Origin: Methanosarcina mazei S-6
GTDB lineage: Archaea; Halobacteriota; Methanosarcinia; Methanosarcinales; Methanosarcinaceae
DNA length: 64,000 bases
Reading direction: 5' to 3'
Assembly (NCBI RefSeq): GCF_000970205.1
Contig: NZ_CP009512.1
Location: 1,364,001 to 1,428,000 of the forward strand
The notes below the pieces were generated by a model. That model was not told the DNA's origin. It did not search any database and saw only the letters and a program-made list of their open reading frames with translations. This document shows, in pieces, positions 30,310 through 54,815 of the stretch. Each line of letters opens with the position of its first letter. Position 1 is the first letter of the stretch. Both the position numbers and the translations under genes were made by a program.

Positions 30310-30311
30310 TA

Positions 30312-34500: not shown

Positions 34501-35059
34501 AATTATATTCCTTGATTCGTTCCTTGTACTCTCTAATAGTTTCAGTTATCCATATATTGAAATCTCCACTTTTTTCTTTTAACATGGAAAGTGTTTTGGA
34601 AAAATCCATAACCACAAACTCGTTATTTTCCCATCTACATAAGGGGATTCTAAAGATATCCAAGTCATTTGACTTATCGTAGAGATGGATGTAGCTGAAA
34701 TGGTTCACACCCCCACTCTCGAGAAGATCATCAGGGTCATCTTTCTTTTTCGCACAAAATCCTGTAAGCAAGTACTTGTGTTCATATAACCCTTCATCAA
34801 GTTCCCATTCAGCCAGAACATGCGTTGTCCTATTTGGATCCCCTCCTTCAAACATAGCCTTAAAAGGTTTTTTTGAATCAAGATGTGATTTCGGTATGAT
34901 GCACTGCAATAATAGCATTACAAGGACGGATTTGCCACCACCGTTAACAAGTTCATACGTTGCGCTAAGACCGTCAAAAGGCATGAGAAAATCCTGGTAT
35001 ATGCCCTTGCCTTCATTGAACTGGGCATTAATAATTCGGAGGTTTTTAAGTTTCGGCAT
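31484..35059 (-). pseudogene. jetC: Wadjet SMC-like ATPase jetC, N-terminal part, disrupted
   Basis: This 1191-codon frame starts with an SMC/MksB-like ATPase head containing Walker A NGGGKSVL (about 39-46). Long coiled coils around a central hinge-like region follow (about 600-760). Codons up to 1182 are native; the last nine come from the IS. The protein should pair with JetA and JetB as a loop-extruding complex that presents circular plasmid DNA to JetD. Its start overlaps the jetB stop by 14 bases. The ABC signature and Walker B lie beyond the insertion, so the product cannot hydrolyse ATP. The reconstructed length is about 1465 residues. Confidence 0.92.
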
Positions 35060-35801
35060 TCTTTTCTTCCTCCAAACAAGTCAAATCATCAATGAACTCT
35101 ATTATGTCTGTTTGAACGTCTGACCTGTTATACGCTTCAGACACGATTGCTTTGAATCTTTCCGTAGGATAAACTGCATTATTGTGCTCATCTACCAGTC
35201 TGTGTTTTTTCATAAAAATAACAGTTTCATTTATGATCGCAGTCTTTGAACTGGTACCTTTTTGTTTGATCTCAATATCTGAATCATCTCTGAATTCTAC
35301 GTTTGGCAAACTATCCCATAAGTCTTTAATTTCCCTGAAATTAAATTTATACTCTTCACTGATTTTATCCAGATCTTCAAAATCAGATAATGCCCGAATT
35401 TTTGCTTCTATAATTCCTATAAGGTAATTTTTAGGAAGGTTTATGCGAAGTGTGTCATGAAAGGATTCTTTGTAAAATTCGCTTACTATTACATTCATTA
35501 TGAAAAAGACTGTGTACATTTCGGGGTTTTTGAATCCTCTCCCGAGTTCATTTTTAACATCTTCATTAGTATAACCAAAAACACGGTTTCCAACTCCGGC
35601 ACTCAAAAATATTGAATCTCCGCGTCCGCAAACGTATAGTCCGAGTTTTTCAGCACAAAAATCAAGCGCTTCCCTTATTTCGCTTTCTTGTTCATAACGC
35701 ATGAAGTGTTTTGGATACACAAATCTTTCAATTGAGCCAGTTGACAACATCTGATAAAGCATATCAAAAGCGATTCCTAGATTCTCTTTTTCAAATTTCA
35801 C
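35046..35801 (-). CDS. jetB: Wadjet JetB (MksE-like kite subunit)
   Basis: This is a 251-residue, mostly helical winged-helix protein in the position of the KITE subunit of MksBEF-like complexes, between jetA (4 bases upstream) and jetC (14-base overlap). The C-terminal part (VYPTERFKAIVSEAY) precedes an acidic tail. In Wadjet it links the kleisin JetA to the ATPase heads. The identification rests mainly on operon position, size and fold character. It is complete and probably translated, but its partner jetC is broken. Confidence 0.8.
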   Translation of the reverse strand: MKFEKENLGIAFDMLYQMLSTGSIERFVYPKHFMRYEQESEIREALDFCAEKLGLYVCGRGDSIFLSAGVGNRVFGYTNEDVKNELGRGFKNPEMYTVFFIMNVIVSEFYKESFHDTLRINLPKNYLIGIIEAKIRALSDFEDLDKISEEYKFNFREIKDLWDSLPNVEFRDDSDIEIKQKGTSSKTAIINETVIFMKKHRLVDEHNNAVYPTERFKAIVSEAYNRSDVQTDIIEFIDDLTCLEEEKNAET

Positions 35802-35805
35802 ATAA

Positions 35806-37380
35806 TCACTTCATAATAAATTTCATGTTTGATATATAAGCACTGAACCCTTTTTTAATATTTATTATCTCGTCCGGAAAGGATGTAACGATAAAAGTGG
35901 AACTTGAAAGACCGAGTGCTTCATGTGCGGATAGTAACGCCTCTAGGATCAGTTCACGATTGGAGTGGCACGATAATTTTAGTTTATTAAATTCAAACCG
36001 AGTGACGTTTAGTTCCTTGTTTTTCAGTTTTTGAGAATTATCAGAGGCTTGCGCGTTTACATCATCAATATCAACATTAAGCGAAAACAGGAAGGGAATC
36101 AGATCCATATTTTGCAGTGCTTCAGGTCCAAGTGTATCTTCAACTGTCTTAAGATATACTTCAAGGGTTAAATCCCCGCCATGATCCTCTACACACCCGA
36201 GTAACGCATGAGCATAAACTCTAAAATTGTTTCTTTGCCGTTCATCAACTGTTCCATCAATAAGCTTTTTTTCACTCCATTCATCATTCTGCCTTGTTTC
36301 GGAAACTTCAGATTTTTTACGGCTTACAATCTGCGATTCAAATATTTTGTATAAACTAAAAGACCTAGTGGTTTTAGGTAGGAACATAGGGTGCATTCCA
36401 ATAACATGAACATCATTTGGATAATTTTGCCTAATATTGTTTTCGAGGATTTCCTTAAAATGCCATTTTCTATCGAATAACGAGTTTACCCTGATCCGAC
36501 AAATTTTCTCATACTCTCCCGGCAGGTCTGTATACTCCTTCAGTAATCCGGAGTGAAGCTGATAACCACGGTCGAGCTCAGTAGAAATTTGCTTAAGGAT
36601 CAAGAAATCCTTTTCATTCGCACTTTTGTTGGAAATATTGATGATTTCTTCGTGATTTTTTGTTAATTCTAAAAGAGTGGTTCTGACTTCTTCAAATAAA
36701 ATTTTTTCTTGTTGAAGTTGGCTAAAAACTCCCTCTGAGAAAATGGAATAATCCTCAACTACATCGGCTCCTCCATACAGCATTTTCTCTAACAAATTCT
36801 GTTTTTTTTCTTTTTTGCGAAGAACCTCAAGATTGAGTTCTCTTACCGTATTCAATGCAGTTACGAAAGAACCATTTTCAATCTGCTTTTTAAAAAGGAT
36901 TAAGCTCACAGAAATTTTTGATTCCTCTGGCAGTTCCTTGATGCTTATCATGAAATCAAGTCCTGCATCACTGATTTGGTAAGCCTTGTTACTTACATCA
37001 TATTCTATCAGATGCACATAATGACCATCTTTCTTTCTACGGATAGGGTCCATATATTCAAAATGATACGATTCTCCGTCTCTGTCCGTTTCTAGAATAG
37101 TCAATAATGTACGTGTTACCTGTTTGCTGTTAGTCTCATAATCCATATACATTTCATTGAGTATATTCTTTATATGTACCTCAATTTCATCTACCTTCAG
37201 GGAACGTCCACGTAGTTTTCCCTCCTCGATTAATAAGGTCAAAACACTAAGTGCGATATAGGGTAAATCATATTCCAGATTATTCCGATAAGAATACGCA
37301 TAGATCCGGAAAAATGGATAATAACATTTTAAATGCCTCATCCGTTCGTTAATGTCCTGGAAATGTTTAGCGTATTCCAA
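35806..37380 (-). CDS. jetA: Wadjet JetA (MksF-like kleisin subunit)
   Basis: This 524-residue protein has an N-terminal winged-helix part (PFFRIYAYSYRNNLEYDLPY), a central helical region and a C-terminal segment ending in FSAYISNMKF. It corresponds to the kleisin that bridges the JetC heads. The start overlaps the jetD stop by 14 bases, and jetB follows after 4 bases, which shows tight translational coupling. A second Met at residue 14 is a possible alternative start. It is intact. Confidence 0.82.
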   Translation of the reverse strand: MEYAKHFQDINERMRHLKCYYPFFRIYAYSYRNNLEYDLPYIALSVLTLLIEEGKLRGRSLKVDEIEVHIKNILNEMYMDYETNSKQVTRTLLTILETDRDGESYHFEYMDPIRRKKDGHYVHLIEYDVSNKAYQISDAGLDFMISIKELPEESKISVSLILFKKQIENGSFVTALNTVRELNLEVLRKKEKKQNLLEKMLYGGADVVEDYSIFSEGVFSQLQQEKILFEEVRTTLLELTKNHEEIINISNKSANEKDFLILKQISTELDRGYQLHSGLLKEYTDLPGEYEKICRIRVNSLFDRKWHFKEILENNIRQNYPNDVHVIGMHPMFLPKTTRSFSLYKIFESQIVSRKKSEVSETRQNDEWSEKKLIDGTVDERQRNNFRVYAHALLGCVEDHGGDLTLEVYLKTVEDTLGPEALQNMDLIPFLFSLNVDIDDVNAQASDNSQKLKNKELNVTRFEFNKLKLSCHSNRELILEALLSAHEALGLSSSTFIVTSFPDEIINIKKGFSAYISNMKFIMK

Positions 37381-38446
37381 TCATACGCAGCCTCCTCATA
37401 TCTGTTTTATTGACAACTTCTTGAGGAATGTATTTTTGAGCAGATATAATCTCTTCAATTACTTTTCTAGTCTCGTGGCTGAAGAAATCGATGAATGGAG
37501 ACAGCGACTCTTCGTTTATTTTACGGCATTTCCGCAGAGGTTTGGCGTTTTCCTGCCCAGATTTATTCAACATATATTCATATAATGAAACTGCTGGACG
37601 AATATTATACTCTGAAAAGGTACTCCTTAACCGATTAAAAATAAGTATTCCTTCCTGATCCATATCCCCAAAATAATAATAATGATCAGTTGTCTTACCG
37701 CCCACCATCTGTATAAACTCAAACTTACTTACAACGGCGTTTCCTTCCCCGTATATAAGTAAATGAATATCTGTAAGTTCTCTGCTTAAAGTTGCATCCA
37801 TGAACGTCCAGAAGGTATCCTTATTCTCCACAATAAGAATTTTCCGGGCTAATATATCACTTAAACTTTCATACTCTTTGGCTTTAATATAGAAAAATGG
37901 TTCTGGTTTTTTCTCAGCCTTTATGTCCTTGATTGTCAGGTTCAGTCGGTTTAAAATAATTTCTCCGTCAATAGATGCATTTTTTGGGGAAGTAATTGCT
38001 TTTTCATCCCCGAATATCAAATATGATCTTTCATTAGCAGTAAGGACTTCACAATCATTATCCATCATTAAATCATTAATCCTGCGTATAAACTCCCTAT
38101 GCGCACGATATTCCTCAATGTGCTTTAAATAGTAGCTCATATTGAGTTTGCATGAAAGTCCTCTCAGTTCTTCTGCTGGTATCTCTTCATCACACTGTCT
38201 GAAGTAATGTCTATTAATCTCATACTTGCTAGGTAATCCCTCATACTGTTGCAGCTTTTTTGCGCTTTTCAAAGGGACCAGCACATTCTCATCGATCAGT
38301 TTTTTAATTACATCAATAAACGGCCTGTTTAGCCATGGATCTGAAATTAAGTTTATACCGCCGTTTTTCAGTTCTCCAACTATGTATTTTATCTCAACTC
38401 TTTTTTTTGCATATTGCTCAAGTATTTCTAAAACTTGTTCCTCCAT
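37367..38446 (-). CDS. jetD: Wadjet JetD nuclease (Toprim, topoisomerase VI-like)
   Basis: This 359-residue protein has an N-terminal winged-helix region and a C-terminal Toprim domain. The acidic motif is HYYYFGDMDQEGILIFNRL (about residue 262), and an upstream Glu lies in KILIVENKDTFW. JetD cleaves plasmid DNA presented by the JetABC motor. It is the first gene of a jetD-jetA-jetB-jetC operon. The ribosome site AGAAGGAAATG precedes the ATG. It is divergent from the UvrD-like gene, with about 200 bases between them for both promoters. Confidence 0.88.
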   Translation of the reverse strand: MEEQVLEILEQYAKKRVEIKYIVGELKNGGINLISDPWLNRPFIDVIKKLIDENVLVPLKSAKKLQQYEGLPSKYEINRHYFRQCDEEIPAEELRGLSCKLNMSYYLKHIEEYRAHREFIRRINDLMMDNDCEVLTANERSYLIFGDEKAITSPKNASIDGEIILNRLNLTIKDIKAEKKPEPFFYIKAKEYESLSDILARKILIVENKDTFWTFMDATLSRELTDIHLLIYGEGNAVVSKFEFIQMVGGKTTDHYYYFGDMDQEGILIFNRLRSTFSEYNIRPAVSLYEYMLNKSGQENAKPLRKCRKINEESLSPFIDFFSHETRKVIEEIISAQKYIPQEVVNKTDMRRLRMIGIR

Positions 38447-38654
38447 GCTTTACATTTCCTTCTTTCATTTCTGATTAAGGTTCAGGTTATAACTAATAAA
38501 TATTTAATATCTCACTTACTATATTTTTTTATTGCGTGTTTTGATAAAGATGACATGTATCGCTGGTTTCCAGAAGATTAATAACTTTAATATTTTTATA
38601 CATGCCTGTCTTTCTGAAATACAAAAATAAACAAAATAGTTTCGGGGCATCCGC

Positions 38655-41600
38655 ATGTTAGAAGAACTCCTCACAAACCTCACTTCCAGGCAAAGAGATG
38701 CAGTTGAGCATGTTTCAGGTCCTTTCTTAATCCTTGCAGGGGCAGGTACAGGTAAGACTACAACAATCACTGGCAAAATTGCCTGTATGATCAAAGTACA
38801 GGGAGTTAAACCGGAAAAGATTCTCGCTCTTACTTTTTCAAGAGAAGCTGCCAGAAATATGGAAAAGAAAATCTATGGACTTTTAGGGCAAGGGACCAAT
38901 GTAAAGGTAAGTACTTTTCATGCCTTCTGTGCCGAATTGATAAGAGATAATTCTGAAAAGTGTGGGATTTCGGAGCAATTTACCATTTTTGAGGAAATTG
39001 ATGTAGCTATCCTGATTTATAAGGATCTGGGTACAACTTCGAGAAATGCAACTTTATACTCCAGCACAATCGCAAAAGCAAAGGATTTGAACATTTCTAT
39101 TAGTAAGTTCAAAGATTATCTTGAAACAAGAAAGGAATCGTTACTTAACTTTGCTGAAGAAAGCAGATTTGAGCAGTTTTATAACGAGTGCAAGGTCAAC
39201 CTGAACACATTTCATTTAAAGGATAGTAGTCAGCAAAAAGCCCTGAAAGATGAAAAGAAAAAATGGCAGAAATTTATCGGACTTTATGATGAATATCGTA
39301 AATATGCTGATTTCATCAACGCCTGGGAAACGTATGAAAAGAGAAAGAAAACCCTGAATTGCCTTGATTACGGGGATCTTAATAAAATTGCCCTTGATTT
39401 CCTTAACACCTATGGCACAGCAGAGTTGAATGACACCTATACCCATATTATTGTTGACGAGTTTCAGGATACTAATTACGTGCAGTTCGAACTTATCAAA
39501 CACCTGACTGCAAGGGAGAAAAATATCACAGTGGTTGCAGATGCAAACCAGAGCATCTATGCTTTCCGGGGAGCATACGCGAATAATATAGAAGAGTTTA
39601 AAGAGCAGTTCGGGATTTTAGAAAAAGATGTTGTATCCCTTGATACGAGTTTCAGGTCAACAAATAAGATCCTCAAGGTAGCCCACAGACTGATCTCACA
39701 TAATTACCCAGAAGACCGAAAAGGCGAATGTCTCCTTCTCAAGAACTGTAATGATAACGAGGGCAAAAATGTAGTCGTCCAGGAAACAAAAGATGATGGC
39801 GAAGAAGCAAGAAAAATAGTAGAACAGATTGAACTCTATATTGAAAATGATGTTCCCCTTAAAGAAATTGTAGTCCTTTATCGAACCCATAACCAAGGAA
39901 GACATATCAGACAGGCGCTCCAGAGGCGCGAAATTCCTGTGATTGTGAAGGATGATGCAGACTATTTGAAACAACCCGAAATCAAGACCGTACTTTCCTA
40001 TCTCTACATATTAAACAATCTCATGGATCCTACTCCAAGAGGCACAGAGGCCTGGTGGCGACTCTTTCATTACAATAACAGCCTTAAAAATAGCGATTCA
40101 GTTCGTATAGGAGAGTACACCCAGCGAAACAAAGTTCGTTTTCAGGAAGCCATTTACCACCATCTTGACGAGATAGAGTTAAGCGAAAACGGATGCAAGA
40201 CTGTCGAAAAAGTAAAAGAAACAATCAGGGTTCTTAGCGAGAAAAAACTGCTGGATGTCTCCGACCTTCTTCTTGAAATTTACGATCTAAGTGGAATTGT
40301 AAGACACCTTAATAGGCTGGATACGCTGAAAACCAGGGAAGCTTTTCTTAACCTCCGAAACCTGCATGAAATGGCAAAGAAATTTGAACAATTTCATAAT
40401 AGAGAGCTTTTTGGCTTCATCGATTACCTTGAGATCCTTGACGAGATGGGGGGCAACCCTGAATCTGCAAAAATCAGGGAAGACGATGCTGTAAGCCTGA
40501 TGAGCATCCATGCAGCAAAAGGACTCGAATTCAGGGTTGTTTTTGTGACCAGCATGGCAAAGGATAAATTCCCTCTATTAAGGGGTGGGCAAGATTTTCT
40601 AATTCCACTGGAAATGATGGAACAGTACTGTGATCTTTTCTCAGCGAAGTTAAGTGAAGCAGAGCTCGAGAAGGCTATTAAGGAACGAAAAAAAGAAATA
40701 AGATTTGAAGACGAACGCCGACTTTGTTACGTCGCGTTTACGCGAGCAAAAGAAGACCTTATACTTACTCTTTCTCTTGAGTATGGCGGTAAGGAGCGGG
40801 AGCCATCCGAGTTTTTGATGGAAATTGGATATGATCGCTGGAGAGACCTAGAAAGTCCTCTGGACAGGGAAGCAAACGCTAACACAGAAATGGAGACTAC
40901 TTTTGATGCTCTTGACCTGTCTTACCGGAGAGACTTTGAGATCAAAACTGCAGGTTTTGTGAGAGACGATGAGCTTGAAAGGGAGAAAAACAGGTGTATA
41001 CAACAGCTTATTGAAGCCCTTGATAAGGACCTTGAGGAAGCTGTACACTACCTGATGGTATACAGAGCCCTCAGGGACGGCGGATGCGGGAATTACCTTG
41101 AAGAATTACAGCATAAATGGAGTACGATAGATCCTGCTATGAGAGCAGGAGAGATCCTCACAAAAATAAAGGTCAGAAATAATGGTTTAAGGTTCAGTCC
41201 GGAAGCATTCAGTTTCAGCTTTTCCGCTTTGAAGGCATATGAAAACTGTCCGAAACAGTATGAATTGCAGGAAATCCTGCGCATGCCAAGCCGGAAGAAT
41301 GAAGATTCCACAGGAGCTATGACAAGGGGGAGTTTCGTACATAAGGTACTTGAAACCGCAGTTAAAGAAAAGGTTGCAGAAAAGCAGGCACTATATGAGA
41401 TAGCTAAAACTCTTCATAAAAAGCCAGAATGGATATATGCAGATCTCGAATCTACCCTTCCTCTTTTTGAAGTATTCTGGCTCCGAAACAAAGACCGGAT
41501 CTCAAATAACCTCATGGTAGAACAGTGGTTTTCAGTCCCTATAGACGGCTTCGTTTTCAAGGGTATTATTGATAGAATCGATTTGCTTGACCCCTCCAAA

Positions 41601-41960
41601 AAAGAGGTCGAGATAATTGATTACAAAACTGGGAAATATGATGTGAGTCCCGAAGACCGTTCAAGGCAGCTTCTACTCTACGCAAAAGGTTTTGAACACA
41701 TGTACCCCGGATACACGGCGAAAAAGCTCACACTTGACATGCTGGCTCTAGAAAAACCCAGGAGTTTTGAGCTGCAGGAGGACGGAGAGTACAGGGGTAC
41801 TGAAGGCAGAGTAAGTCCACTTGATAGAGGAACAATCGACTCTATGGTGGAGACTGCACAAAGGATTGCTCATGATTATGAGCATGGTTTTGAAGGGACA
41901 GAGGATCCGGAAATCTGCAAGGAGTGCGGGTTTAGATTGTACTGTGACGGTGTTAATTAA
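38655..41960 (+). CDS. UvrD-like helicase fused to a Fe-S PD-(D/E)XK nuclease
   Basis: This 1101-residue superfamily 1A helicase has motif I GAGTGKTTTITGK (about 28), motif II IIVDEFQDTNY (about 267), SIHAAKGLEFRVVFV and VAFTRAKEDLILTLS. A C-terminal RecB-like nuclease follows, with FKGIIDRID and EIIDYKTGKYD (about 968-995). Four cysteines (YENCPKQY plus CKECGFRLYC at the end) match the AddB/Cas4-type Fe-S cluster arrangement. It unwinds and degrades DNA ends. The stop overlaps the mcrB start by one base (TAATG), so it belongs to an operon with mcrB and mcrC and probably processes DNA cut by McrBC. GGGGCAT precedes the ATG. Confidence 0.88.
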   Translation: MLEELLTNLTSRQRDAVEHVSGPFLILAGAGTGKTTTITGKIACMIKVQGVKPEKILALTFSREAARNMEKKIYGLLGQGTNVKVSTFHAFCAELIRDNSEKCGISEQFTIFEEIDVAILIYKDLGTTSRNATLYSSTIAKAKDLNISISKFKDYLETRKESLLNFAEESRFEQFYNECKVNLNTFHLKDSSQQKALKDEKKKWQKFIGLYDEYRKYADFINAWETYEKRKKTLNCLDYGDLNKIALDFLNTYGTAELNDTYTHIIVDEFQDTNYVQFELIKHLTAREKNITVVADANQSIYAFRGAYANNIEEFKEQFGILEKDVVSLDTSFRSTNKILKVAHRLISHNYPEDRKGECLLLKNCNDNEGKNVVVQETKDDGEEARKIVEQIELYIENDVPLKEIVVLYRTHNQGRHIRQALQRREIPVIVKDDADYLKQPEIKTVLSYLYILNNLMDPTPRGTEAWWRLFHYNNSLKNSDSVRIGEYTQRNKVRFQEAIYHHLDEIELSENGCKTVEKVKETIRVLSEKKLLDVSDLLLEIYDLSGIVRHLNRLDTLKTREAFLNLRNLHEMAKKFEQFHNRELFGFIDYLEILDEMGGNPESAKIREDDAVSLMSIHAAKGLEFRVVFVTSMAKDKFPLLRGGQDFLIPLEMMEQYCDLFSAKLSEAELEKAIKERKKEIRFEDERRLCYVAFTRAKEDLILTLSLEYGGKEREPSEFLMEIGYDRWRDLESPLDREANANTEMETTFDALDLSYRRDFEIKTAGFVRDDELEREKNRCIQQLIEALDKDLEEAVHYLMVYRALRDGGCGNYLEELQHKWSTIDPAMRAGEILTKIKVRNNGLRFSPEAFSFSFSALKAYENCPKQYELQEILRMPSRKNEDSTGAMTRGSFVHKVLETAVKEKVAEKQALYEIAKTLHKKPEWIYADLESTLPLFEVFWLRNKDRISNNLMVEQWFSVPIDGFVFKGIIDRIDLLDPSKKEVEIIDYKTGKYDVSPEDRSRQLLLYAKGFEHMYPGYTAKKLTLDMLALEKPRSFELQEDGEYRGTEGRVSPLDRGTIDSMVETAQRIAHDYEHGFEGTEDPEICKECGFRLYCDGVN

Positions 41961-44392
41961 TGAAATTGACTAAGAAAAATATATTGGAAGCTATCTCGAT
42001 TGCCAGATTAATTGTTGATGAAAATTTGGTAGGGAGCCAATTATACGAAAGAGATGATGAAGAGATAAGGATAAAAAACAGATATAACTCGACTATTAAA
42101 CCTAAAATTGAAGAATTTAAATCAAATAACGATGGAAATACGCCAAATAAACTTTTAAAATTGTATTTAGAAGTGTTTATAAGTAAAAAAGGATACAGCG
42201 ACAAATTTGACGTAAAAGGATTTCATTATAAAGGTCAAGTTGTTAATTCATATGTTTGGGCTGCTATCACAAAAAAAGATAGCTCAATTGATGACATGAA
42301 GGCCTCTAAATGTCCTCAGCTTTATATACGGATCGCTGATTCTTACATTCTCTTTGGCTTACGCTATGGAAAACATGTCCAAAACAGTGACAAATGTGTT
42401 CAATTTGTTAAATCTGATAAAGGATTGAAGAAGCAACTTCTTGAATTAGTAAATTCCAATAAAGAGATTCATGTCTTTGATGAGAATGAAACTTATGAAG
42501 TTGAATTAAGAAAATATGAAGATATAGATAATAACTGGACAGAGAATATAAGGCTAGTTAGTGTAGTAAAAGAAAGCGAAATTCCGGACAATATTGAGAA
42601 TAGGATATATAATACATTGGATAATCTTTTTGAAGTATTCTTAAAGATATCTGAAATTGAGTCTGTATATGTAAAAGGACGTGGTTCTGTTATAATTGAG
42701 GAAGATTCTGCTTCAATGAAGAATGAATGTCTTCGAATGAAAAAACTACTATCCAACAAAAAACAGGTTATTCTATATGGTCCACCTGGAACAGGTAAAA
42801 CCTACGTTGCATCCAACTTCATAAAATCAAATACTTCTGACCAGATATACAACGAAAAACAGACTATTCCTTATGACTCTTCTAAAAAAGATGATACTTT
42901 TGTTACGTCTAATTTAATAAAATCAGATACATCTGACCAGACAACCAAAGAAAAAATCTCTATTGATCGAAAATTTTTCTTTTATGGGTCTAAGCTTACT
43001 TATCCGAAAATTCAAGAGCTTTGGAACAAATCAGAATCTACACTAGATATTAATAGTAACATGCATAGAAAAGAGACAATTGATATAATAAAGGCTGGAG
43101 ATATGCTTTTTATTTATGCTGCCAGTCCTAGAAAGAAAGTTATTGGTATTGCTGAATTTATTCAAAAGGAACTCCAATGGGATGGTAAACTAATTTTTAG
43201 AATCAAAAATCTAAAACAAATGAGAAATGGTCCTACATTGGAGGATCTTAGAAATGACAGTATATTATCAAAATCTGAACCTATTATAAATGAATTAAAA
43301 GGCAACTTGAATCCAATTAATAAAGATGCAGCTTTAAGACTGCTGAAATTATCGAAGGTTTCACTTGATAATTCAAATGTCGAGAATATAATTGAACCAG
43401 AAGTTGTGCAAAATCATGAATTCTCAAAGGTTGAGAAAATAGCCGAACCAGAAATTTCAAAGAATCATGAATTAATCACTTATTACGAATTTATTACATT
43501 CCATCCCAGCTTTTCATATGAAGATTTCATTGAAGGGCTACGCCCTCTTAACAATGATGATGGTCAGATATCTTATAAGGTAGACGAAGGTTTGTTTAAA
43601 AGATATTCTAGATTTGCTTTCAATGCTCTCATGGCTAAAGCAGAAATCGAAAAAGAATGGGGGCAGATGGAAAATATTCCACAACTGACCGTAGAAGAAA
43701 AAGAAAAAGCCAAAAAAGCCGCTGGAGAAGTTTCATTCTACCTTGTAATTGATGAAATCAATAGAGGAGATATTTCGCGTATTTTTGGAGAATTGATTAC
43801 ACTTCTTGAGTCAGATAAGCGCCTTACAGCTGACAATGAACTAATTATCACTCTCCCATACTCCAAAACAAAATTTGCAGTTTCACCTAATCTCTATCTT
43901 ATAGGCACCATGAATACAGCTGACAAATCAATTGCTCTAATTGACATTGCACTCAGGCGCCGTTTTGGATTTATTGAAATGATGCCTGATTATAGTGTAC
44001 TCGAAGAGAAGCTAGTAAATGAGGATAAAGATATCAAGGAAGTATTCGATCTTTCAATTCAAGCGCTTAAAAAAGTCAATGAAAATATCCTCAAAACCTA
44101 CGATAGGGATCATCAAATAGGACACAGTTATTTATTAAAACTCAAAGACTCTAAATCACGCAATGATGCAATTGAGGATTTCCGTTTCATCTGGTATTAT
44201 GAAATCCTTCCGCTTATGCAGGAATATTTCTATGACGCACCTGCAAAACTCAAACAGGTTTTGGGGAATGAATTTATAGTAGTTGAGAATCGCTCATTTT
44301 CCTTTATTGATAACCTTGAGGGGGAAGAGTTCATAAAAACCATCCAGAGAGTGGTAAATTCAGAAAAGAGGCAGAACGAAATAGGTGACTAA
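41960..44392 (+). CDS. mcrB: McrB-type GTPase with an EVE-like domain inside the AAA+ module
   Basis: This 810-residue protein opens with an N-terminal MrcB-like domain (about 60-190; LYLEVFISKKGYSDKF, YILFGLRYGKH). Walker A YGPPGTGKT follows at 273-281. Then comes an insertion of about 200 residues whose core (about 336-466: IKAGDMLFIYAASPRKKVIG, RLLKLSK) looks like an EVE/PUA-like reader of modified bases. The AAA+ fold resumes at about 505 (FITFHPSFSYEDFIEGLRP), with Walker B FYLVIDEINRGD, the McrB signature MNTADKSIALIDIALRRRF and the C-terminal lid. Short internal repeats flank the insert. With McrC it should translocate and cut DNA with modified bases. Confidence 0.88.
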   Translation: MKLTKKNILEAISIARLIVDENLVGSQLYERDDEEIRIKNRYNSTIKPKIEEFKSNNDGNTPNKLLKLYLEVFISKKGYSDKFDVKGFHYKGQVVNSYVWAAITKKDSSIDDMKASKCPQLYIRIADSYILFGLRYGKHVQNSDKCVQFVKSDKGLKKQLLELVNSNKEIHVFDENETYEVELRKYEDIDNNWTENIRLVSVVKESEIPDNIENRIYNTLDNLFEVFLKISEIESVYVKGRGSVIIEEDSASMKNECLRMKKLLSNKKQVILYGPPGTGKTYVASNFIKSNTSDQIYNEKQTIPYDSSKKDDTFVTSNLIKSDTSDQTTKEKISIDRKFFFYGSKLTYPKIQELWNKSESTLDINSNMHRKETIDIIKAGDMLFIYAASPRKKVIGIAEFIQKELQWDGKLIFRIKNLKQMRNGPTLEDLRNDSILSKSEPIINELKGNLNPINKDAALRLLKLSKVSLDNSNVENIIEPEVVQNHEFSKVEKIAEPEISKNHELITYYEFITFHPSFSYEDFIEGLRPLNNDDGQISYKVDEGLFKRYSRFAFNALMAKAEIEKEWGQMENIPQLTVEEKEKAKKAAGEVSFYLVIDEINRGDISRIFGELITLLESDKRLTADNELIITLPYSKTKFAVSPNLYLIGTMNTADKSIALIDIALRRRFGFIEMMPDYSVLEEKLVNEDKDIKEVFDLSIQALKKVNENILKTYDRDHQIGHSYLLKLKDSKSRNDAIEDFRFIWYYEILPLMQEYFYDAPAKLKQVLGNEFIVVENRSFSFIDNLEGEEFIKTIQRVVNSEKRQNEIGD
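42803..42957 (+). repeat. Imperfect repeat in mcrB before the EVE-like insert
   Basis: VASNFIKSNTSDQIYNEK and VTSNLIKSDTSDQTTKEK are two copies with a short spacer. The similarity is also clear at DNA level. The repeat sits right after Walker A, at the boundary of the inserted module. Confidence 0.75.
43379..43477 (+). repeat. Imperfect repeat in mcrB after the EVE-like insert
   Basis: VENIIEPEVVQNHEFSK and VEKIAEPEISKNHELI are adjacent copies of about 50 bases. They form the linker that returns from the EVE-like insert to the AAA+ fold. Confidence 0.75.
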
Positions 44393-45743
44393 GTTGACCA
44401 TTTCGATTGCAACTCTTTTTGAATACGTTACTTATAATGTAGTCCTGTCAACAGAAAAAGATTATTATTCTGAAAATTCAAGGACCCTTCATTTAACTGA
44501 AGAAACTCTTAATGAACTTGAAAAGATTAACAAAACCAATAAATTTCTGGATATCGGAAGAAAAACCCTCAAACCACGGAATTGTATTGGAGTCGTAAAA
44601 GCTGGTAGTATCACAATCGAAATATTGCCTAAACTGTTTAAAGATGACAGATATGAACAGCATAGGGCCGTTATTGCAAGAAACCTGCTCAAAATGCTTT
44701 CATATTCTGAAAAATTGTCATTAAAGGAGATAGATTCGGCAGACCTTGATACAGAAGAACTTGATTTCTTTGAAATTTTTATCTACTTTTTTGCGAAGAA
44801 TTTAAATGAATTAATCAAATCGACTCAGAGAAGAGAGTATATCAAAAATTCTGAAGAGCTCCGTTTTATCAGGGAAAGAATAGACACAAGACGCTATACA
44901 AATCCCGCACGCTTGCATATTATCCCATGTAATTACCATGAGTTATCTATTGATACTACCCTCAATCGTACACTAAAATACACATGTTATTTGATGTCTA
45001 GAATGGTAAAAAATTTCAATTCATTCAGGCTGCTCAGATCAATATCAGGAATTCTTGATTCAGTTACACTTTATCCTGTATCACTTGCAGAGATTGACAG
45101 GATTTCTTTTACTAGGTTAAACAGAAAGTTCGAGCCGTTTATCAGAATATGCCGGATATTTCTCTCCCATTCCACGCTTACTCTTCAAGCTTCAGATGTG
45201 GAGACATTTTCTCTTCTAATACCTATGGAAACTCTTTTTGAAGAATTCATAGCTAAAGTGATAAAAGAGGACCCAGATTATTTCTTTGGCCCGCAAACTT
45301 CGGTCTCAACACAGCAATATATCGGTAAATTAGCTAGCTCTGAGGATGGCTCTGGCGTGTTCAACCTACAGCCGGATATTGTTATTAAAAGAGGGCCAGA
45401 TGTTGCAATCATTGATACTAAATATAAGCTTCTGGATGACGAAAAACGCAAATATGGAGTGTCACAGGCTGATATGTACCAAATGTATGCGTATGTGACA
45501 AAAAAAGATGCTATTAGTTCGATGCTCCTTTACCCAGATACTGAATTAAAAGAGCAAAGGACTTTTTATTATAACCTGGAAAATGAAGGAAAAAGAAGTG
45601 TGCCGCTCTATATTACATCGATAAAGCTATCATACGACTTGACAAATGAGAAAGAGTGGTCTGAGTTCAGAAAAGATCTAAGAAATGTTCTCACAAAATT
45701 TTTTCCTAATCTTAATCTCTTAGGATTTACAAAATTGAACTGA
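44385..45743 (+). CDS. mcrC: McrC nuclease subunit
   Basis: This 452-residue McrC has an N-terminal domain (IEILPKLFKDDRYEQHRAVI) that binds and stimulates the McrB ring. Its C-terminal PD-(D/E)XK nuclease has LQPDIVIKRGPDVAIIDTKYKLL (residues split here as QPDIVI and IIDTKYK). The GTG start overlaps the mcrB stop by eight bases. A preferred alternative start is not evident. It is intact and should form the cutting subunit of the modification-dependent restriction system. Confidence 0.9.
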   Translation: MTKLTISIATLFEYVTYNVVLSTEKDYYSENSRTLHLTEETLNELEKINKTNKFLDIGRKTLKPRNCIGVVKAGSITIEILPKLFKDDRYEQHRAVIARNLLKMLSYSEKLSLKEIDSADLDTEELDFFEIFIYFFAKNLNELIKSTQRREYIKNSEELRFIRERIDTRRYTNPARLHIIPCNYHELSIDTTLNRTLKYTCYLMSRMVKNFNSFRLLRSISGILDSVTLYPVSLAEIDRISFTRLNRKFEPFIRICRIFLSHSTLTLQASDVETFSLLIPMETLFEEFIAKVIKEDPDYFFGPQTSVSTQQYIGKLASSEDGSGVFNLQPDIVIKRGPDVAIIDTKYKLLDDEKRKYGVSQADMYQMYAYVTKKDAISSMLLYPDTELKEQRTFYYNLENEGKRSVPLYITSIKLSYDLTNEKEWSEFRKDLRNVLTKFFPNLNLLGFTKLN

Positions 45744-45936
45744 GAAACAATAGTTTTAAACCTTTAACTATGCAAAATAATGATTTAAACCATAAAGTCT
45801 ATTGAGCTTGTTTTTTCATTTCAAGTGTGTAAGTTCAAAATCCTACTGCCATTTAGAAAAATGAGTAAGTCTCCACATTTGCAAAAAATATAGAGTTAAT
45901 TTGTGCCTGCGATCTTCTGAAGTTTACTTCAATAAA

Positions 45937-47985
45937 TTAAATCAGCGCCATCGACTTGTACACTGCATCTATAGGATCCTCATAAAACGAAATCTGGAAC
46001 TTACTGAAAAGATCCGGTGGCACTGTTGCAATCTTTCCTGCAGAAGAAATTGGAATCATTACCCTCTTTGCCCCTGCATCAAGGCAGACCTGCAAAAGAC
46101 CAGCAAGATTTTCAAGTATACCTACAGAGCCGCCGATTGTCATACTCCCTAGAATTGCAGTCTGTTCCTGAAGTGACCTTTCCAATGCGCCGGAGCAGAG
46201 GCTGATGAAGGCTGGAAGGGCAAGTTCTTCTGACATGCCAACTCCGTAAAGGTCCTGGACGTGCAAAAAGTAATCCTTTTCTTTTACAGATATGCTCTGA
46301 CTTATGGATTTTGCATTGGCTTTGAAGTAATTGAATGCCGTTTTTATGGATTCCTTTGTCTGAGTATTTGAGCCTGTACCTGATTTTTCATATTTTCCCG
46401 AGCCTGCAACTACCTGAACTTCAAACTTGTAAATCCCAATTTTACCAGATTCGGTAGCTCCAACAGCATAGGCTTCACCAGGTTTTGTGATACCTGCAGG
46501 GATAATCTTGTTTCCACCGCTTTCTGGGACGGACACGAAGGATTCTTTCAGGTTTTCATTGTCAATATAGGAGAAATTGACATCGAAGAACTCGATCCCT
46601 CCTATTTTTTTAAGCTGCTCTTTCACGCGCCTTCTTCCAACGAGGGTATACTCAAGGATCTCCTGCGCCTGTTCCCTGGTGATATTCTCATCCGGGTAAA
46701 TGAGTTTCATAAGACCTGAGAAGGTCTTTTTAACGGCGATCACATCACGCTGGTTCAGGTTGTTCCCTAGCTTAAAGAATCTGTTTATGTTGTCGGCGTA
46801 GGACCTCTTCCTCATTTCCCTGAAGAATTCTGCAATATAGTCAACTATGAATCCATACCTGTCCGTAAAGTGTTCAGGCCTGAACTTCGGGATTTCCCAG
46901 CCAGGGATATAATAGTACATCCTGTCGAAAAAGGCGGTATCACTGTTCATGGTTTCCGGGAAGGGAGAGAACAGGTGTGAAGTCTTTAATAAGGACTCAA
47001 TACTCTGGTTGACATTTCCAACAAAAACAATGGAAGCGTTTGCGTTCTTTTGCTCTTTTCCCCTCGCAAAGGAGCCTGAGGCCATATAGTCTTTAAGGAT
47101 CTGTATTCCGTCCTTGTCTTTGAAACGGATTCCTGCAACCTCGTCAAACGCCACAACGTCCCAGAACCCAACAAGCCCTATCTGTCGGGTGCCCATGTTG
47201 TAGAAAAGGTTTGCAACTGTGGTCTGCCCTCCGGACATCAGGATGGTGTTTGGGGATATTTCCTTGTAAACATGAGATTTTCCAGTACTTTTCGGGCCGA
47301 GTTCGCAGAGGTTATAATTATTTTCGACAAGAGGAACAAGCCTTTCGAGCATATGCCACTTTGTGGAAGTTTCAAGCTGGGTAGGCTCCATCCCAATGCT
47401 TCTCATCAGAACGTCAATCCACTCATCTTTGGTGAAGTTCTTTCTTTCAACCAGGACCTCCTGGATGTTTACATTCGGGATCTGGATGGGTTTTAAACTG
47501 GAGATTATGAATGGCGAAGAAGCTGATTCTGTTGAGTATTCCATCTTGATCATGCACCAGATACCGCCACCGAGAAGCTTGTCGTATTTTATGACATAGT
47601 CAGAGTCGATCTCAATGCTTTTGAGCCCGAGATTGGAGAAAGTAGCTTCGTAGATGTCTCTCCTTTCGTTGAGCATAACCGTGATCTTGTCAATAACCGT
47701 ATAGTAGCCCGTCTCACGGATCTTCGACTTGATCTTTTCGGCTTCATCTGGGCGGACATAGTTCTGGGACAGGATACTTTTTACTATCTGGATGCCTTCC
47801 TGGATTACTTCTTCGTCCTCGTCAGCACAATAGGAGCCAAGCAGGTATTCCAGCACGTAAACAGGGACGTTGTGCCCAACTTTCAGCAGTTTTGTAAGGT
47901 CTTTTCGTACAACTCTGCCAGGGAAATACTGAATTAATTTTCTGTCGGTTTCAAGGATTGCTGTCTCAAGAGATTCTTCGGTCAT
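45937..47985 (-). CDS. brxL: BREX system BrxL, AAA+ with Lon-like C-terminus
   Basis: This 682-residue protein ends the BREX locus. The AAA+ core has Walker A LGPKSTGKSHVYKE (about 228) and Walker B VVAFDEVAG (about 278), with a downstream sensor IVFVGNVNQS. The C-terminal Lon-like domain (about 500-682) contains LYGVGMSEELALPAFISL where Lon has its catalytic Ser, but the catalytic Lys position (Lon GGLKEK) reads GILENLAGLL, so classical protease activity is doubtful. BrxL is a DNA-binding hexameric restriction effector in type 1 BREX. GGACAGGAT precedes the ATG. It lies 71 bases downstream of pglZ and is probably cotranscribed with it. Confidence 0.92.
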   Translation of the reverse strand: MTEESLETAILETDRKLIQYFPGRVVRKDLTKLLKVGHNVPVYVLEYLLGSYCADEDEEVIQEGIQIVKSILSQNYVRPDEAEKIKSKIRETGYYTVIDKITVMLNERRDIYEATFSNLGLKSIEIDSDYVIKYDKLLGGGIWCMIKMEYSTESASSPFIISSLKPIQIPNVNIQEVLVERKNFTKDEWIDVLMRSIGMEPTQLETSTKWHMLERLVPLVENNYNLCELGPKSTGKSHVYKEISPNTILMSGGQTTVANLFYNMGTRQIGLVGFWDVVAFDEVAGIRFKDKDGIQILKDYMASGSFARGKEQKNANASIVFVGNVNQSIESLLKTSHLFSPFPETMNSDTAFFDRMYYYIPGWEIPKFRPEHFTDRYGFIVDYIAEFFREMRKRSYADNINRFFKLGNNLNQRDVIAVKKTFSGLMKLIYPDENITREQAQEILEYTLVGRRRVKEQLKKIGGIEFFDVNFSYIDNENLKESFVSVPESGGNKIIPAGITKPGEAYAVGATESGKIGIYKFEVQVVAGSGKYEKSGTGSNTQTKESIKTAFNYFKANAKSISQSISVKEKDYFLHVQDLYGVGMSEELALPAFISLCSGALERSLQEQTAILGSMTIGGSVGILENLAGLLQVCLDAGAKRVMIPISSAGKIATVPPDLFSKFQISFYEDPIDAVYKSMALI

Positions 47986-48056
47986 TTTTATCCTGTCCCT
48001 ATTAAATATCCCTACTCTTTTTTATCCCGAATTTTTGTGCATAATTTATTTTCAAC

Positions 48057-50759
48057 TTAGAAGTCATCAAAGTCGCCAATCAGAAGGTCAAGTTCGAATG
48101 GAATCCGTGCAATATCTTTAATTTCAGCTGGGTCTTCGTCAATAAGCCTAAGGTAATATGTTTTGTTTTCAAGATTGTTTCCGAGGGTGAGCAGGATATT
48201 ATACTGCCTTTCTTCGGGTTCATCGGATTCGTTATTGACAATAATGATTTTTTCATCGCTGACCATTTTTTCCTGCCCACCATCAATATCCCATAGAGAA
48301 ACTTTAATGGTGCGGGATTTCATTTTGTCAGTAACTTTTTCTGTCTGGAAAATCTTTACTTTAAATTTGTTGCTTGTAATCTTTTTCCGGTCATTTATCA
48401 CCGAGACATTGACTTTACCATGCTTGATACCTTTCTTCTCAATGGCTTTTTCATTCCGCCGATGATTATATGTTAAAACTGGAATTGCAATTTCCTGAGG
48501 AGAGGCTCCTCCGTGCACGAAATTGAGCCCCCCTCCCTGAAGTTTGAACCTGAGATCTGCTTTAGGGACATAGGCAAAAAGGGGAGTGTGATCCTGCCCG
48601 AGCATATGGCGCATGTCAAAGCTGTGTATGTTATCCAGTGAATTATCCTGTGTAAGTTCCTGGTCACTCAGGATAAATCTCTTTGTTGTGTCAATTATGC
48701 GAGATTTGTCAAATAATGAAGTATCTACTTTATCTACACTTTCCATATCGTCTCTTCTGTAAAGGAAACCGTGATCTGCTGTGACAATGATATTTGTTGT
48801 GTTCAGTCGATCACTCAAATACTTGACAAGTTTCTTAATTTCAACAATTGTTTCTTCTACAGCAATGAAAACGCTATTCTCTGAGGACTGTTTATCCCCA
48901 GTTGAATCTATTTTATTGTGGTATATGTAAAGGACTCTTTTTCCCTTGATGAGTTCTCTTGCTTCTTCCCGGCTGTACCTCATGAAGTCTTCATAATTAA
49001 ATGCAAGTGAATCTTCATATTTACTCTGCAGGATTTTGTTCCTTTTTTCAAGTCCTTCAGAACTTATGCCATCCACAAAGATTTCTCTTCCCTTATATTC
49101 CAGAGCATTATGTGGGAGTAAACTTGCCATTCCAAGCTTTGTGTATGAGGGTAAAACTCCTGCCATGTAGCTGAGTTCGGGAAGTCCCCAGGTATCTTTG
49201 TTGAGGATTTCAAAAAGCTCTGCTGCTGCTTCGTAGCGAAGTGCATCGGAGATTATGACTGCAACTTTACTCCGATCATCCTTTTGCAGGATCTTATTTG
49301 CTACGTGCTGTTTGTAAAAACTCTTCTGGCTTTCTGCAAGCTCGATCTTCCACTGCCCTTTAAGATCAGATTCAATTAGGCTACTCCATTTCAATAACAA
49401 TTTTCCGAGTAGCTTGTTGGTGTAAAGGTCTTCAACCTGAGGTCTGAGGTTTTTCTTCAGGATATCTTTTTCCTGCTCTTTGTCATAATAATAGTAAAAT
49501 TTCCTATAGAGGTAATCAATCTGGTAGTAAGTCTCAGCATACGCTTTGAATAACTCGTATAAGCTAGGAGTGTTTTCAAGTGCGTTAGATGCTTTTGGAT
49601 TATCATAATAGTTCAGGGAAAACTGGAAGAGCTTAACCGCATATCCAAGCGCGTTGTAGATATTCTCATACTCTGAAAACCAGTGCTTTGTCCTGCGGGT
49701 ATCAATCCAGGAAAGATAGTTTTTAAAGTCATCTTCTGTTGAATTTACAGGACTGTTCAGGGATTTGAGTATATGAACAATTAAAGCTTTATCAAATGTC
49801 TCAACAGCTTCGGCTTCAAGATATGTCTGCACATCTCGCTTATCAAGCGCTGCCTGCAGGTTCTTTTCCAGATCATGGTTATTTTCTTCAAGGATTTCCC
49901 TTGTATATTTTTCAAATGTATTAGAATCCCGTGAGCTGTCCATCCAGTGCTTGAGGAAGATCTGACACTCGTTTTCTTTTCGGTTCACATACTGGTCGTA
50001 ACCTGAAAGGGAAATTCCTGAATACCTCTTCATGTGTGTAATCAGGAAACTAAGGAAAAGCTTCTTCAGGGTAGGATTCTTTGCCGAAAACCCAAAGTCC
50101 TCTTCTGAAAGTTCCCAGAAGTTTTCCTTCAGTCCGAATTTTGAGATATTCTCCAAGATAGGATTTTCAGCTTCATCCAGTGATTTGAGCATGATGTCCC
50201 TAACAATCTGTTTGAACTCAGGAGCCTGCGTTTTTGAAAAAACAGCCAACATGCCCAGAATGAACTCTTTTTCACGCCAGTCTTTCTGGTAGAACTTTTT
50301 TAAAGGCTGAACTCTTTCTTTCTGGTTGCCAAAGAATTTCTCGTATTTAGTGAAGAAGTCGTCAAGATCATGCCCGTCAATCTCAAACTCGCTCTTAATG
50401 TCTGAAATCCGGCTGTTTTCGAATCTGGAAGAATAGAGCTGGATATCAAAAAGCCAGTTAGATTCGTGTGATCTTTCTTTGTCTGGACAGTAGATTAAAT
50501 ATTTTGATTCCGTATCTTCAATTTCGAGGAGTTTTTTGGTTTCAAAGTAATTGTTGTCAAGGATATGGAATTTGATGTTATTTTCTTTCAGGATCTGTAT
50601 TATTTCTTCAAGCTCTTCTCCGGGAGCATTCTTCTCCTGATCCCAGGCAGTTTTATCCCTGTCGTACCAGAAAACTATTTTTCTTTTCTCATAGTCTTTG
50701 AATTCAGAAGGAGAAAATTTTTTGAGTATGCTACCACTGGTTTTTTCTACGTTGACCAT
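48057..50759 (-). CDS. pglZ: BREX-1 PglZ, alkaline phosphatase-fold protein
   Basis: This 900-residue PglZ is of type A. Metal-site motifs of the alkaline phosphatase fold are KVAVIISDALRYEAAAEL (about 498), IIVTADHGFLYRR (about 655) and the family hallmark NFVHGGASPQEIAIPVL (about 745). The N-terminal half is helical and specific to PglZ. It is required for BREX exclusion and for methylation with PglX, though its substrate is not settled. It is upstream of brxL on the same strand. An unrelated ATPase gene, a hicB-hicA pair and other inserts separate it from pglX. Confidence 0.93.
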   Translation of the reverse strand: MVNVEKTSGSILKKFSPSEFKDYEKRKIVFWYDRDKTAWDQEKNAPGEELEEIIQILKENNIKFHILDNNYFETKKLLEIEDTESKYLIYCPDKERSHESNWLFDIQLYSSRFENSRISDIKSEFEIDGHDLDDFFTKYEKFFGNQKERVQPLKKFYQKDWREKEFILGMLAVFSKTQAPEFKQIVRDIMLKSLDEAENPILENISKFGLKENFWELSEEDFGFSAKNPTLKKLFLSFLITHMKRYSGISLSGYDQYVNRKENECQIFLKHWMDSSRDSNTFEKYTREILEENNHDLEKNLQAALDKRDVQTYLEAEAVETFDKALIVHILKSLNSPVNSTEDDFKNYLSWIDTRRTKHWFSEYENIYNALGYAVKLFQFSLNYYDNPKASNALENTPSLYELFKAYAETYYQIDYLYRKFYYYYDKEQEKDILKKNLRPQVEDLYTNKLLGKLLLKWSSLIESDLKGQWKIELAESQKSFYKQHVANKILQKDDRSKVAVIISDALRYEAAAELFEILNKDTWGLPELSYMAGVLPSYTKLGMASLLPHNALEYKGREIFVDGISSEGLEKRNKILQSKYEDSLAFNYEDFMRYSREEARELIKGKRVLYIYHNKIDSTGDKQSSENSVFIAVEETIVEIKKLVKYLSDRLNTTNIIVTADHGFLYRRDDMESVDKVDTSLFDKSRIIDTTKRFILSDQELTQDNSLDNIHSFDMRHMLGQDHTPLFAYVPKADLRFKLQGGGLNFVHGGASPQEIAIPVLTYNHRRNEKAIEKKGIKHGKVNVSVINDRKKITSNKFKVKIFQTEKVTDKMKSRTIKVSLWDIDGGQEKMVSDEKIIIVNNESDEPEERQYNILLTLGNNLENKTYYLRLIDEDPAEIKDIARIPFELDLLIGDFDDF

Positions 50760-50977
50760 GAAAATTCATATCCTGCTATTAAGTATGGTAAGGCTTAATT
50801 GAGAGCTAGAGATTTAGATACTTTATCCCTGAAATACTCTTTTATTTTTAAAAGATTTTGCTAACTTTTGGGTTGGTCATTCATACCGCATGTAAAAATT
50901 ATCCGTCTTGTCATTTCCTATACATCACCCAAATTGGATCCAGGACTTGATAATAAGGACAATTGTCTTTTTTGATA

Positions 50978-52363: not shown

Positions 52364-52400
52364 AATGATTATTTTTGTAATAATTATATTTATAATCATT
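52364..52400 (-). promoter_or_regulatory. Palindrome with TATA-like core before the AAA+ ATPase gene
   Basis: Arms AATGATTAT and ATAATCATT form a perfect 9-bp inverted repeat around an AT-only centre containing TATA-like sequence. It ends one base before the preferred start codon. It may be a promoter overlapped by an operator, possibly autoregulatory. Confidence 0.45.
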
Positions 52401-52641
52401 CTCCTGGGAATTCTGGACTCGCTAAAGCATGGAGAAATTTATGCAGCACGCTTACAAACTGACCGTATTTGCAAATTTTCTTGCCCGTTCCTGAAATACA
52501 CGATTAAATTACATTACTAATTAATTATGTTTCATATCAGATACTGATCCACGCGGTGAAAAGTACCCCCTCGACCAGAAACCTTAAACTGGGACATCTT
52601 CCAAAGAGAGATTTTTTATAGCACATAGGAAATCTTTAATC

Positions 52642-52887
52642 ATGGAAGAAACGTACAGGTTTTCAGCTGTCGTCCATAATGAAGGTAAATGGTATGTTTC
52701 CTGGTGTCCGGAGCTTGACATCGCAAGCCAGGGTGAAACAATTGAAGAAGCCATCGAGAACCTGAAGGAAGCAATTGAACTCTACCTCGAAGACGAGGAC
52801 GTCAAAATCCCTGCAGCCAGACAGGTTTTTACCACAACGGTAGAGGTCTCTTCCCATGCCAAAACTTCCCACGCCCTCAGCTCTTGA
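52642..52887 (+). CDS. hicB: HicB-like antitoxin
   Basis: This 81-residue protein has the HicB partial RNase H-like fold: YRFSAVVHNEGKWYVSWCPE, LDIASQGETIEEAIENL and KEAIELYLED. It neutralises the HicA toxin and often represses its own operon; no DNA-binding C-terminal domain is evident here. AGGAAAT precedes the ATG. The gene overlaps hicA by 32 bases, with the antitoxin first. The pair is the only plus-strand unit between pglZ and pglX. Confidence 0.9.
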   Translation: MEETYRFSAVVHNEGKWYVSWCPELDIASQGETIEEAIENLKEAIELYLEDEDVKIPAARQVFTTTVEVSSHAKTSHALSS

Positions 52888-53083: not shown

Positions 53084-53094
53084 TCAAATAAAGG

Positions 53095-53259: not shown

Positions 53260-53337
53260 AATTTTCCCCCTTGTAATTTAATCTTCTCTTTTTTACAACT
53301 ATATGTGTTCTTAATTGATATATGTTCTTTCACTTAT

Positions 53338-54766: not shown

Positions 54767-54815
54767 CTGCAGATTTCCATCGAATACAGGCATGGACATG
54801 ACTGACATGATTCTC

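Follow-up and report, generated by a model that had tools for sequence, protein, structure and literature searches.

In type IV restriction systems of the McrBC kind, among them those of Escherichia coli K-12 and Thermococcus gammatolerans (6ut3-6ut8), modified DNA is recognized by McrB and, once translocation has taken place, cleaved by McrC. A second group of proteins, the fusions of a UvrD helicase with a Cas4-like nuclease (pfam12705), was assigned by Hudaiberdiev et al. (2017) an ancillary role in a number of defence pathways, with contexts that are non-conserved or stand-alone (PMC5704561). Here, we analyse a 64,000-nucleotide stretch of the Methanosarcina mazei S-6 genome (NZ_CP009512.1, positions 1,364,001 to 1,428,000, hereafter the window), in which a uvrD-cas4 gene is followed by mcrB and mcrC on the same strand. 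An earlier note on this DNA had read the three genes as a single defence machine of undescribed composition, in which McrBC cuts modified DNA and the helicase-nuclease degrades the ends. Comparison with related loci leads us to another reading, that the trio probably consists of two separable defence modules brought into one transcription unit by a recent cassette exchange at the 3' end of uvrD. Loci and genomes are designated by L and G numbers; the window genome, a single contig of 4.14 Mb, is G000, and L001 and L053 both derive from the window. The features on which the argument is built, with the open reading frames (ORFs) given in amino acids (aa), are the following.

38655..41960, plus strand: uvrD-cas4, fusion of a superfamily 1 (SF1) UvrD helicase with a Cas4-like, putatively Fe-S, PD-(D/E)XK nuclease, 1101 aa (ORF, Pfam, alignment)
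41960..44392, plus strand: mcrB, type IV restriction AAA+ GTPase with an inserted EVE domain, 810 aa (ORF, Pfam, structure match)
44385..45743, plus strand: mcrC, PF10117 protein with a PD-(D/E)XK nuclease, 452 aa, GTG start (ORF, Pfam)
41966..45930, no strand assigned: variable slot from uvrD to the brxL 3' end, with mcrBC here and c8/c9, SbcCD-like or DdmD-like genes in relatives (DNA alignment)
38593..38600, plus strand: TATA-box-like element TTTTTATA, 55 bp upstream of the uvrD start (conservation among relatives)
38682..40775, plus strand: UvrD helicase domains, residues 10-707 (PF00580 at 10-319, PF13361 at 328-707; Pfam)
41211..41948, plus strand: Cas4-like nuclease domain, residues 853-1098 (PF12705), with GxxVH, GxIDR, DYKTG, QxxLY and the cysteines C..CxxCxxxxxC (Pfam, alignment)
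42779..42802, plus strand: McrB Walker A GPPGTGKT, residues 274-281 (invariant in 17/17)
42965..43354, plus strand: predicted EVE domain between Walker A and the following AAA+ strand, residues 336-465 (Pfam, alignment, AlphaFold)
43913..43924, plus strand: McrB NxxD GTPase signature NTAD, residues 652-655 (alignment)
45372..45422, plus strand: McrC catalytic PD...DxK, residues 330-346 (alignment)

The three ORFs are all intact and overlap by 1 and 8 bases, exactly as first described, and it is the surroundings of these overlaps in related genomes that give them their meaning. The closest named relatives of the uvrD-cas4 gene belong to Methanosarcina, and the DNA of the nearest ones (81-88% identity) aligns with the window from 38591-38593 to 41950-41965, that of L084, L085 and L091 aligning again from 45931-45959, where brxL of the neighbouring BREX-1 operon begins to be reached. 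The uvrD block and the brxL end are kept in relatives with UvrD proteins 82-88% identical to that of the window, and other genes lie between them: plus-strand c8 and c9 with minus-strand SbcC/SbcD-like genes in L091; SbcCD-like genes and relics of c8 in L084 and L085; and, in L083 with its continuation L121, genes for a 1151-aa DdmD-like protein (PADLOC E 5.8e-51) and a 705-aa protein, a 138-aa ORF, c8, c9, SbcCD-like genes and a YprA-like helicase gene before brxL is reached. Behind the uvrD of L086 there are a BrxC/D-type ATPase gene and a YprA-like helicase gene (the latter named by eye). Six aligned loci run through the uvrD stop, and four of them, the window included, share the six bases ATGAAA, with which mcrB opens in the window as its codons 1 and 2. 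The 1-base overlap thus marks where a cassette was joined to the former uvrD stop and is no conserved operon feature; in the set compared, the uvrD-mcrB joint sequence occurs in no locus other than the window's own L001 and L053.

The low GC content of mcrB (32.5%) and mcrC (35.0%) relative to uvrD (41.5%) agrees with mcrBC having replaced an earlier content of the slot, and since c8/c9 or their relics are present in all four near relatives, a replacement in the window is the simplest history. A search of the window slot for a c8/c9 relic gave no match, and a candidate relic of the uvrD 3' end was dismissed, the only two matches being 17 bases long and taken as chance. Upstream of uvrD, the TTTTTAT of the TATA-like element is identical in 6/6 relatives despite their differing downstream genes, and homology with three of the four closest relatives starts at the first base of the element, which may accordingly be regarded as a candidate uvrD promoter; co-transcription of uvrD-cas4 with mcrBC is probable, as had been supposed. 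The first module would then be a UvrD-Cas4 helicase-nuclease that stands alone and has a conserved promoter to itself; the 3' end of its gene, on the side of brxL, would be a site at which defence cassettes are exchanged. The second would be an EVE-type McrBC, type IV and modification-dependent, whose kind is also distributed among other archaeal families; it would have displaced the former slot content in this lineage and so have set its start codon on the uvrD stop.

The slot comparison also brings forward another candidate, namely that the c8/c9 pair is the original partner of this UvrD-Cas4 and was merely displaced by McrBC here. This pair, encoding proteins of 311 aa (c8, PD-(D/E)XK-like by eye) and 210 aa (c9) at L091:11315-12885, recurs at BREX/UvrD loci and elsewhere. 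It stands directly behind UvrD in L091, as the fourth and fifth genes behind UvrD in L083 and behind a NERD/UvrD-type gene in L090, and the relics in L084 and L085 point the same way. Against such a partnership, most UvrD-Cas4 loci are devoid of c8/c9, four of the nine c8-bearing genomes among the 111 of the family have c8 elsewhere, neither protein has a Pfam match, and the nuclease call for c8 was made by eye with weak PADLOC matches. We hold an original c8/c9 partnership to be quite unlikely. Two observations of another order were made at these loci. Directly behind uvrD in L083, the sister locus of the window, the DdmD-like gene and the gene of the 705-aa protein, which has no Pfam match (L083:11427-16971), may represent an archaeal counterpart of the DdmDE type of plasmid defence. 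In genome G075, uvrD-cas4 is split over two frames (L091:8001-11308; residues 1-602 and 599-1101) and is likely a disrupted copy in an otherwise kept cassette.

To check the proposal of one dedicated machine, with UvrD-Cas4 as the obligatory end-destroying subunit of McrBC, a survey of genomes for a conserved trio had been suggested. We carried it out by searching the 111 family genomes with the uvrD-cas4 protein (P0001) at E<=1e-60 and with McrC (P0003). P0001 was found in 18 genomes and P0003 in 11, while only the window genome and G075 have both, the two genes being 287 kb apart in the latter. At the level of the phylum (392 genomes), 21 genomes match P0001 and 58 match PF10117; the McrC loci examined from the latter search do not include seven weak or long matches (G186, G272, G209, G236, G281, G207 and the second of G302). 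Taken together, these two independent searches place both genes in six genomes (G000, G075, G082, G072, G418 and G127), and they lie within ~6 kb only in G000 and G127; two further pairs, in G031 and G035, emerged from the McrC matches, since the divergence of their UvrD had kept them below the cut-off. Altogether, McrC is near UvrD-Cas4 in 5 of 39 loci (the window, L089, L116, L124 and L214, the last two having entered the set because of their McrC) and absent from the other 34; the downstream sequence covers 3 kb or more in 32 of these loci and less in 7. UvrD is hence found mostly apart from mcrBC, the very outcome that the note had named as refuting its proposal, and UvrD-Cas4, McrB and McrC do not form a conserved three-gene system.

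The UvrD tree of 30 proteins (duplicates L013 and L021, truncated L016 and distant L022 left out) is in keeping with these counts: the five McrC-bearing loci are scattered over it and need 4 changes, against a mean of 4.7 upon shuffling, with 112 of 500 shuffles as low, and L083, the sister of the window UvrD, is without McrBC. From the McrC side, the relatives at 51-55% identity (L181, L180, L175, L177 and L179) have no UvrD-Cas4 beside them, though in L180 mcrB is preceded, at a distance of 2.4 kb, by an AddA-like gene, and a UvrD-Cas4 of the window's kind occurs at only 3 of 76 McrC loci (L116, L124 and L214; the window, L089 and the picked locus L285 excluded). The nearest relatives of each module thus do without the other. 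The idea of a single machine can call on the overlapping same-strand genes, on a second same-strand trio of UvrD, McrC and McrB in L124, with UvrD and McrC 30 bp apart, and on E. coli, where electrophoresis patterns were read as chromosome breakage by McrBC followed by degradation by RecBCD (PMC2614495). The gene order differs among the trios, however, G035 lost McrC yet kept UvrD, and the overlap is a cassette joint in this genome only, so that we consider a dedicated machine very improbable. The cut-then-degrade idea itself keeps its E. coli precedent; the dedicated three-gene system built upon it is unsupported.

The other places where both modules meet are instructive as to how such joints are made and unmade. 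In L124, from another genus, UvrD, McrC and McrB are followed by an Mrr-like gene, convergent with brxL. L214, whose UvrD is 96.6% identical to that of L124, has about the first ten codons of an earlier McrC left behind UvrD and then another McrBC on the opposite strand, beyond which lies a 186-bp copy (92%) of the uvrD 3' end (copies at 7352-7537 and 11251-11436). Since L214 keeps this relic, UvrD-McrC was already present in the ancestor of L124 and L214, and in one of the two lineages McrC disappeared and UvrD stayed. The McrBC cassette of L089, ~3.7 kb long, is inserted between an exonuclease gene, itself behind UvrD, and a Zn-TPR gene, L094 representing the empty site. In L116, McrBC is encoded on the opposite strand 5 kb downstream of UvrD, from which two DNA methylase genes separate it. 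The McrC frame of L089, moreover, is not closed by a stop and continues into the Zn-ribbon/TPR protein (12370-14541), which is an unfused neighbour in L094; a McrC match at L094 derived from the Zn-TPR part of this fused seed and was dropped. A viral origin of the modules was set aside, as a search of viral_contigs gave no full-length UvrD-Cas4 relative, only nuclease-end part matches in 12 loci and McrC relatives at <=31%. On plasmids, the best full-length UvrD relative reaches 27.8% (Methanomethylovorans hollandica) and McrC at best 33%.

Three points weigh against a recent and incidental joint. The shared ancestral UvrD-McrC of L124 and L214 means that, in one genus, the two genes were paired before the species diverged. 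The independent UvrD-Cas4/McrBC neighbours in L124, L089, L214 and L116, all with McrBC downstream, exceed what would be expected from scattered single cases. Finally, a gain of mcrBC in the window rather than a loss in its sisters is an argument of parsimony, not proof, and only the six joint bases ATGAAA are shared.

A looser association would be one in which McrBC and a helicase-nuclease of the RecBCD class are repeatedly selected side by side, the second degrading the cuts of the first with no dedicated complex. McrC is downstream of UvrD-Cas4 in 5/5 cases (on the same strand in 3/5), such neighbours arose independently in other lineages, and McrBC is also found beside other UvrD-nuclease genes, namely addBA in L284 and L285 and, in L194 and L196, a gene for a UvrD with a RecB-type nuclease that converges with mcrC. 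Furthermore, a UvrD-type helicase ORF is present at 13 of 79 McrC loci, or 10 of 76 once the window, L089 and L285 are set aside (one of the ten being a 340-aa piece and one lacking a nuclease match), and at none of 20 control regions, placed at fixed fractions along large contigs from ten of these genomes. Most of these helicases are not UvrD-Cas4, being of the AddA type or of a UvrD-RecB type that is probably haloarchaeal. The excess is suggestive, but the control is small and made of random places rather than other defence loci. BREX genes occur near McrC at a similar rate (7/79), and ordinary clustering in defence islands may therefore suffice. In a bacterial phylum of 378 genomes, there are 54 McrC places in 52 genomes and nuclease-profile matches in 79 genomes, and the two lie within 10 kb of each other in 2 cases, both addB/addA-type pairs; 20 loci of the 54 places were inspected, mostly the strongest but including G604, chosen for its nearness to an A1 match. 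One bacterial locus carries mcrB, mcrC, addB, addA and sbcD-like and sbcC-like genes all on one strand (L284:590-15248), and from its gene content looks like a housekeeping addBA-sbcDC cluster fronted by mcrBC, which detracts from its value for a selected pairing. A recurrent alliance of a cutter with an end-degrader is thus plausible but unproven, and as the explanation of the window trio we judge it somewhat unlikely, albeit the strongest competitor of the cassette exchange.

With regard to the proteins themselves, the domain calls made initially are borne out by Pfam, alignments and fold matches. UvrD-Cas4 combines an SF1 UvrD helicase with a C-terminal PF12705 domain in one polypeptide (UvrD_N E=4.4e-62, UvrD_C 7.1e-45, PDDEXK_1 3.1e-27), and four cysteines are present in the nuclease: counted within the nuclease-domain alignment, C21 (motif YxxCP), C247 and C253 are invariant in 13/13 relatives and C244 is found in 11/13, a pattern that fits the Fe-S nuclease previously proposed. 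This places the protein in the UvrD-Cas4 family, with which it shares the domain fusion, the four-cysteine nuclease, the defence-island setting and the non-conserved context. The conserved contexts given in PMC5704561 are type III restriction-modification and Dcm/Vsr, whereas the window flanks are Wadjet III and BREX-1; because stand-alone and non-conserved contexts are also allowed there, this mismatch is no defining failure. The SF1 motor and RecB-type nuclease are shared with AddAB, AdnAB and RecBCD (AddA 3u44, E 1.4e-25; 6ppu, presumably AdnB-type, E 6.6e-23), but unlike these the window protein is a single polypeptide with no second subunit, and membership in AddAB was rejected, addA_Gpos scoring 183.6 bits for an NCBIfam cut-off of 707.65 and no AddB-type gene being adjacent. 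The helicase also resembles Gabija GajB (PADLOC E 2.1e-79), except for the added nuclease domain; with no GajA match among the 9 window proteins scanned, this assignment was discarded as well.

McrB and McrC have the gene order (mcrB before mcrC) and all the signature motifs of type IV McrBC systems, with the AAA+ GTPase motifs, a PF10117 McrC with its PD-(D/E)XK nuclease and a putative modified-base reader domain. Among solved structures, the McrB GTPase is closest to that of T. gammatolerans (E 2e-67), whose McrC is matched by the window McrC (E 1.6e-22). GPPGTGKT, DEINRG and NTAD are invariant in 17/17 McrB relatives, and D331...D344xK346 in 16/16 relatives of McrC, whose PF10117 match is strong (E=8e-75). 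In contrast to the E. coli and T. gammatolerans enzymes, the window McrB has an EVE domain inside the AAA+ fold. The protein matches AAA_5 at E=2.5e-13. By sequence the EVE domain is weak (E=0.0089, under the Pfam cut-off), and its support comes at the fold level: the structures found with the AlphaFold model include, besides McrB, two entries that we take to be EVE proteins, 2ar1 (TMt 0.63, E 3.8e-4) and 1zce (TMt 0.59, E 6.8e-4). The mean confidence (pLDDT) of this model is 63.6, with 53-85 by ten-residue block in the EVE region and mostly <60 in the N-terminal 250 residues. We had also considered that the insertion might be unique to this McrB, and rejected it, since an insert is found at the same position in at least seven McrBs of other archaeal families (L177, L179, L181, L184, L186, L187 and L188). 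EVE-McrB is, according to PMC7641849, the commonest defence architecture of EVE.

From this anatomy, GTP-dependent cleavage of modified DNA is the predicted activity of this McrBC. An EVE-McrB hexamer would bind modified incoming DNA and translocate with GTP, and McrC would make the double-strand break, for which no UvrD-Cas4 partner would be needed. By analogy with RecBCD in E. coli, UvrD-Cas4 made from the same transcript might then enter the free ends, unwind them and degrade or resect the DNA.

The trio sits between a Wadjet III and a BREX-1 system, identified by profile scans of the window proteins, and the defence context claimed at the outset is real. To the left and on the other strand are jetD, jetA, jetB and jetC of Wadjet III; to the right, and convergent, are brxL and pglZ of BREX-1, with pglX and brxC beyond. 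Both systems are interrupted. In 29458-38446, jetC is broken, model positions 1-1159 being encoded in 31484-35059 and 1219-1439 in 29458-30234, with a HTH/DDE_3 transposase pair (30374-31505) separating the two parts, and this Wadjet copy is therefore probably inactive. In 45937-63998, a DUF234 ATPase gene, a Mrr_N-like gene and Fic-like/RecG-C-like genes lie between pglZ and pglX, and an oppositely oriented 785-aa TPR gene separates pglX from brxC. The L007 contig, filed under a Syntrophomonadaceae metagenome-assembled genome, is 100% identical to window 32565-40482 over 7918 bases and is probably a misbinned Methanosarcina contig; it terminates within uvrD, the uvrD-mcrB joint lying outside its span. 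Type I BREX beside a modification-dependent enzyme, as here, is also on record for BrxU, which is a GmrSD-family enzyme and not McrBC (PMC8565348).

The location bears on a last alternative, that UvrD-Cas4 is a DNA-repair gene present only by chance in a defence island. In six Methanosarcinales loci (L009, named as ANME-2 cluster, L011, L013, L018, L019 and L113), the gene adjoins ribosomal protein genes (S13/S4/S11-like, by eye) and no defence gene was seen beside it. Its place at BREX in Methanosarcina and its patchy distribution, in 18 of 111 family genomes, speak for a defence role, and a pure repair function appears unlikely to us.

As to novelty, no report of UvrD-Cas4 with McrBC was found in the open literature, including the text of PMC5704561 and of PMC11090510, which bears on the coiled-coil McrBC systems (CoCoNuT), figures and supplements aside, and the word McrBC is absent from the main text of the former. 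The composition thus does appear to be undescribed; it is nonetheless not one new system, as neither its components nor this type of location is new, and their combination is a minor novelty.

To our knowledge, RecBCD is not the usual end-processing enzyme in archaea. One could imagine, as a conjecture that we regard as unlikely, that UvrD-Cas4 is the exchangeable end-degrading motor of archaeal defence islands in its place, a promoter-bearing anchor to which broken DNA would be fed by swapped cutting or binding cassettes (McrBC types, c8/c9, DdmD-like, SbcCD-like), the uvrD 3' end being a functional as well as recombinational docking site. The exchange of cassettes that we favour for the window means that a convincing overlapping defence operon can be a recent joint of interchangeable parts, which calls for caution in discovery by guilt by association. 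If the pairing of McrBC with a helicase-nuclease is selected, it would offer a simple and testable division of labour between cutter and end-degrader in archaea.

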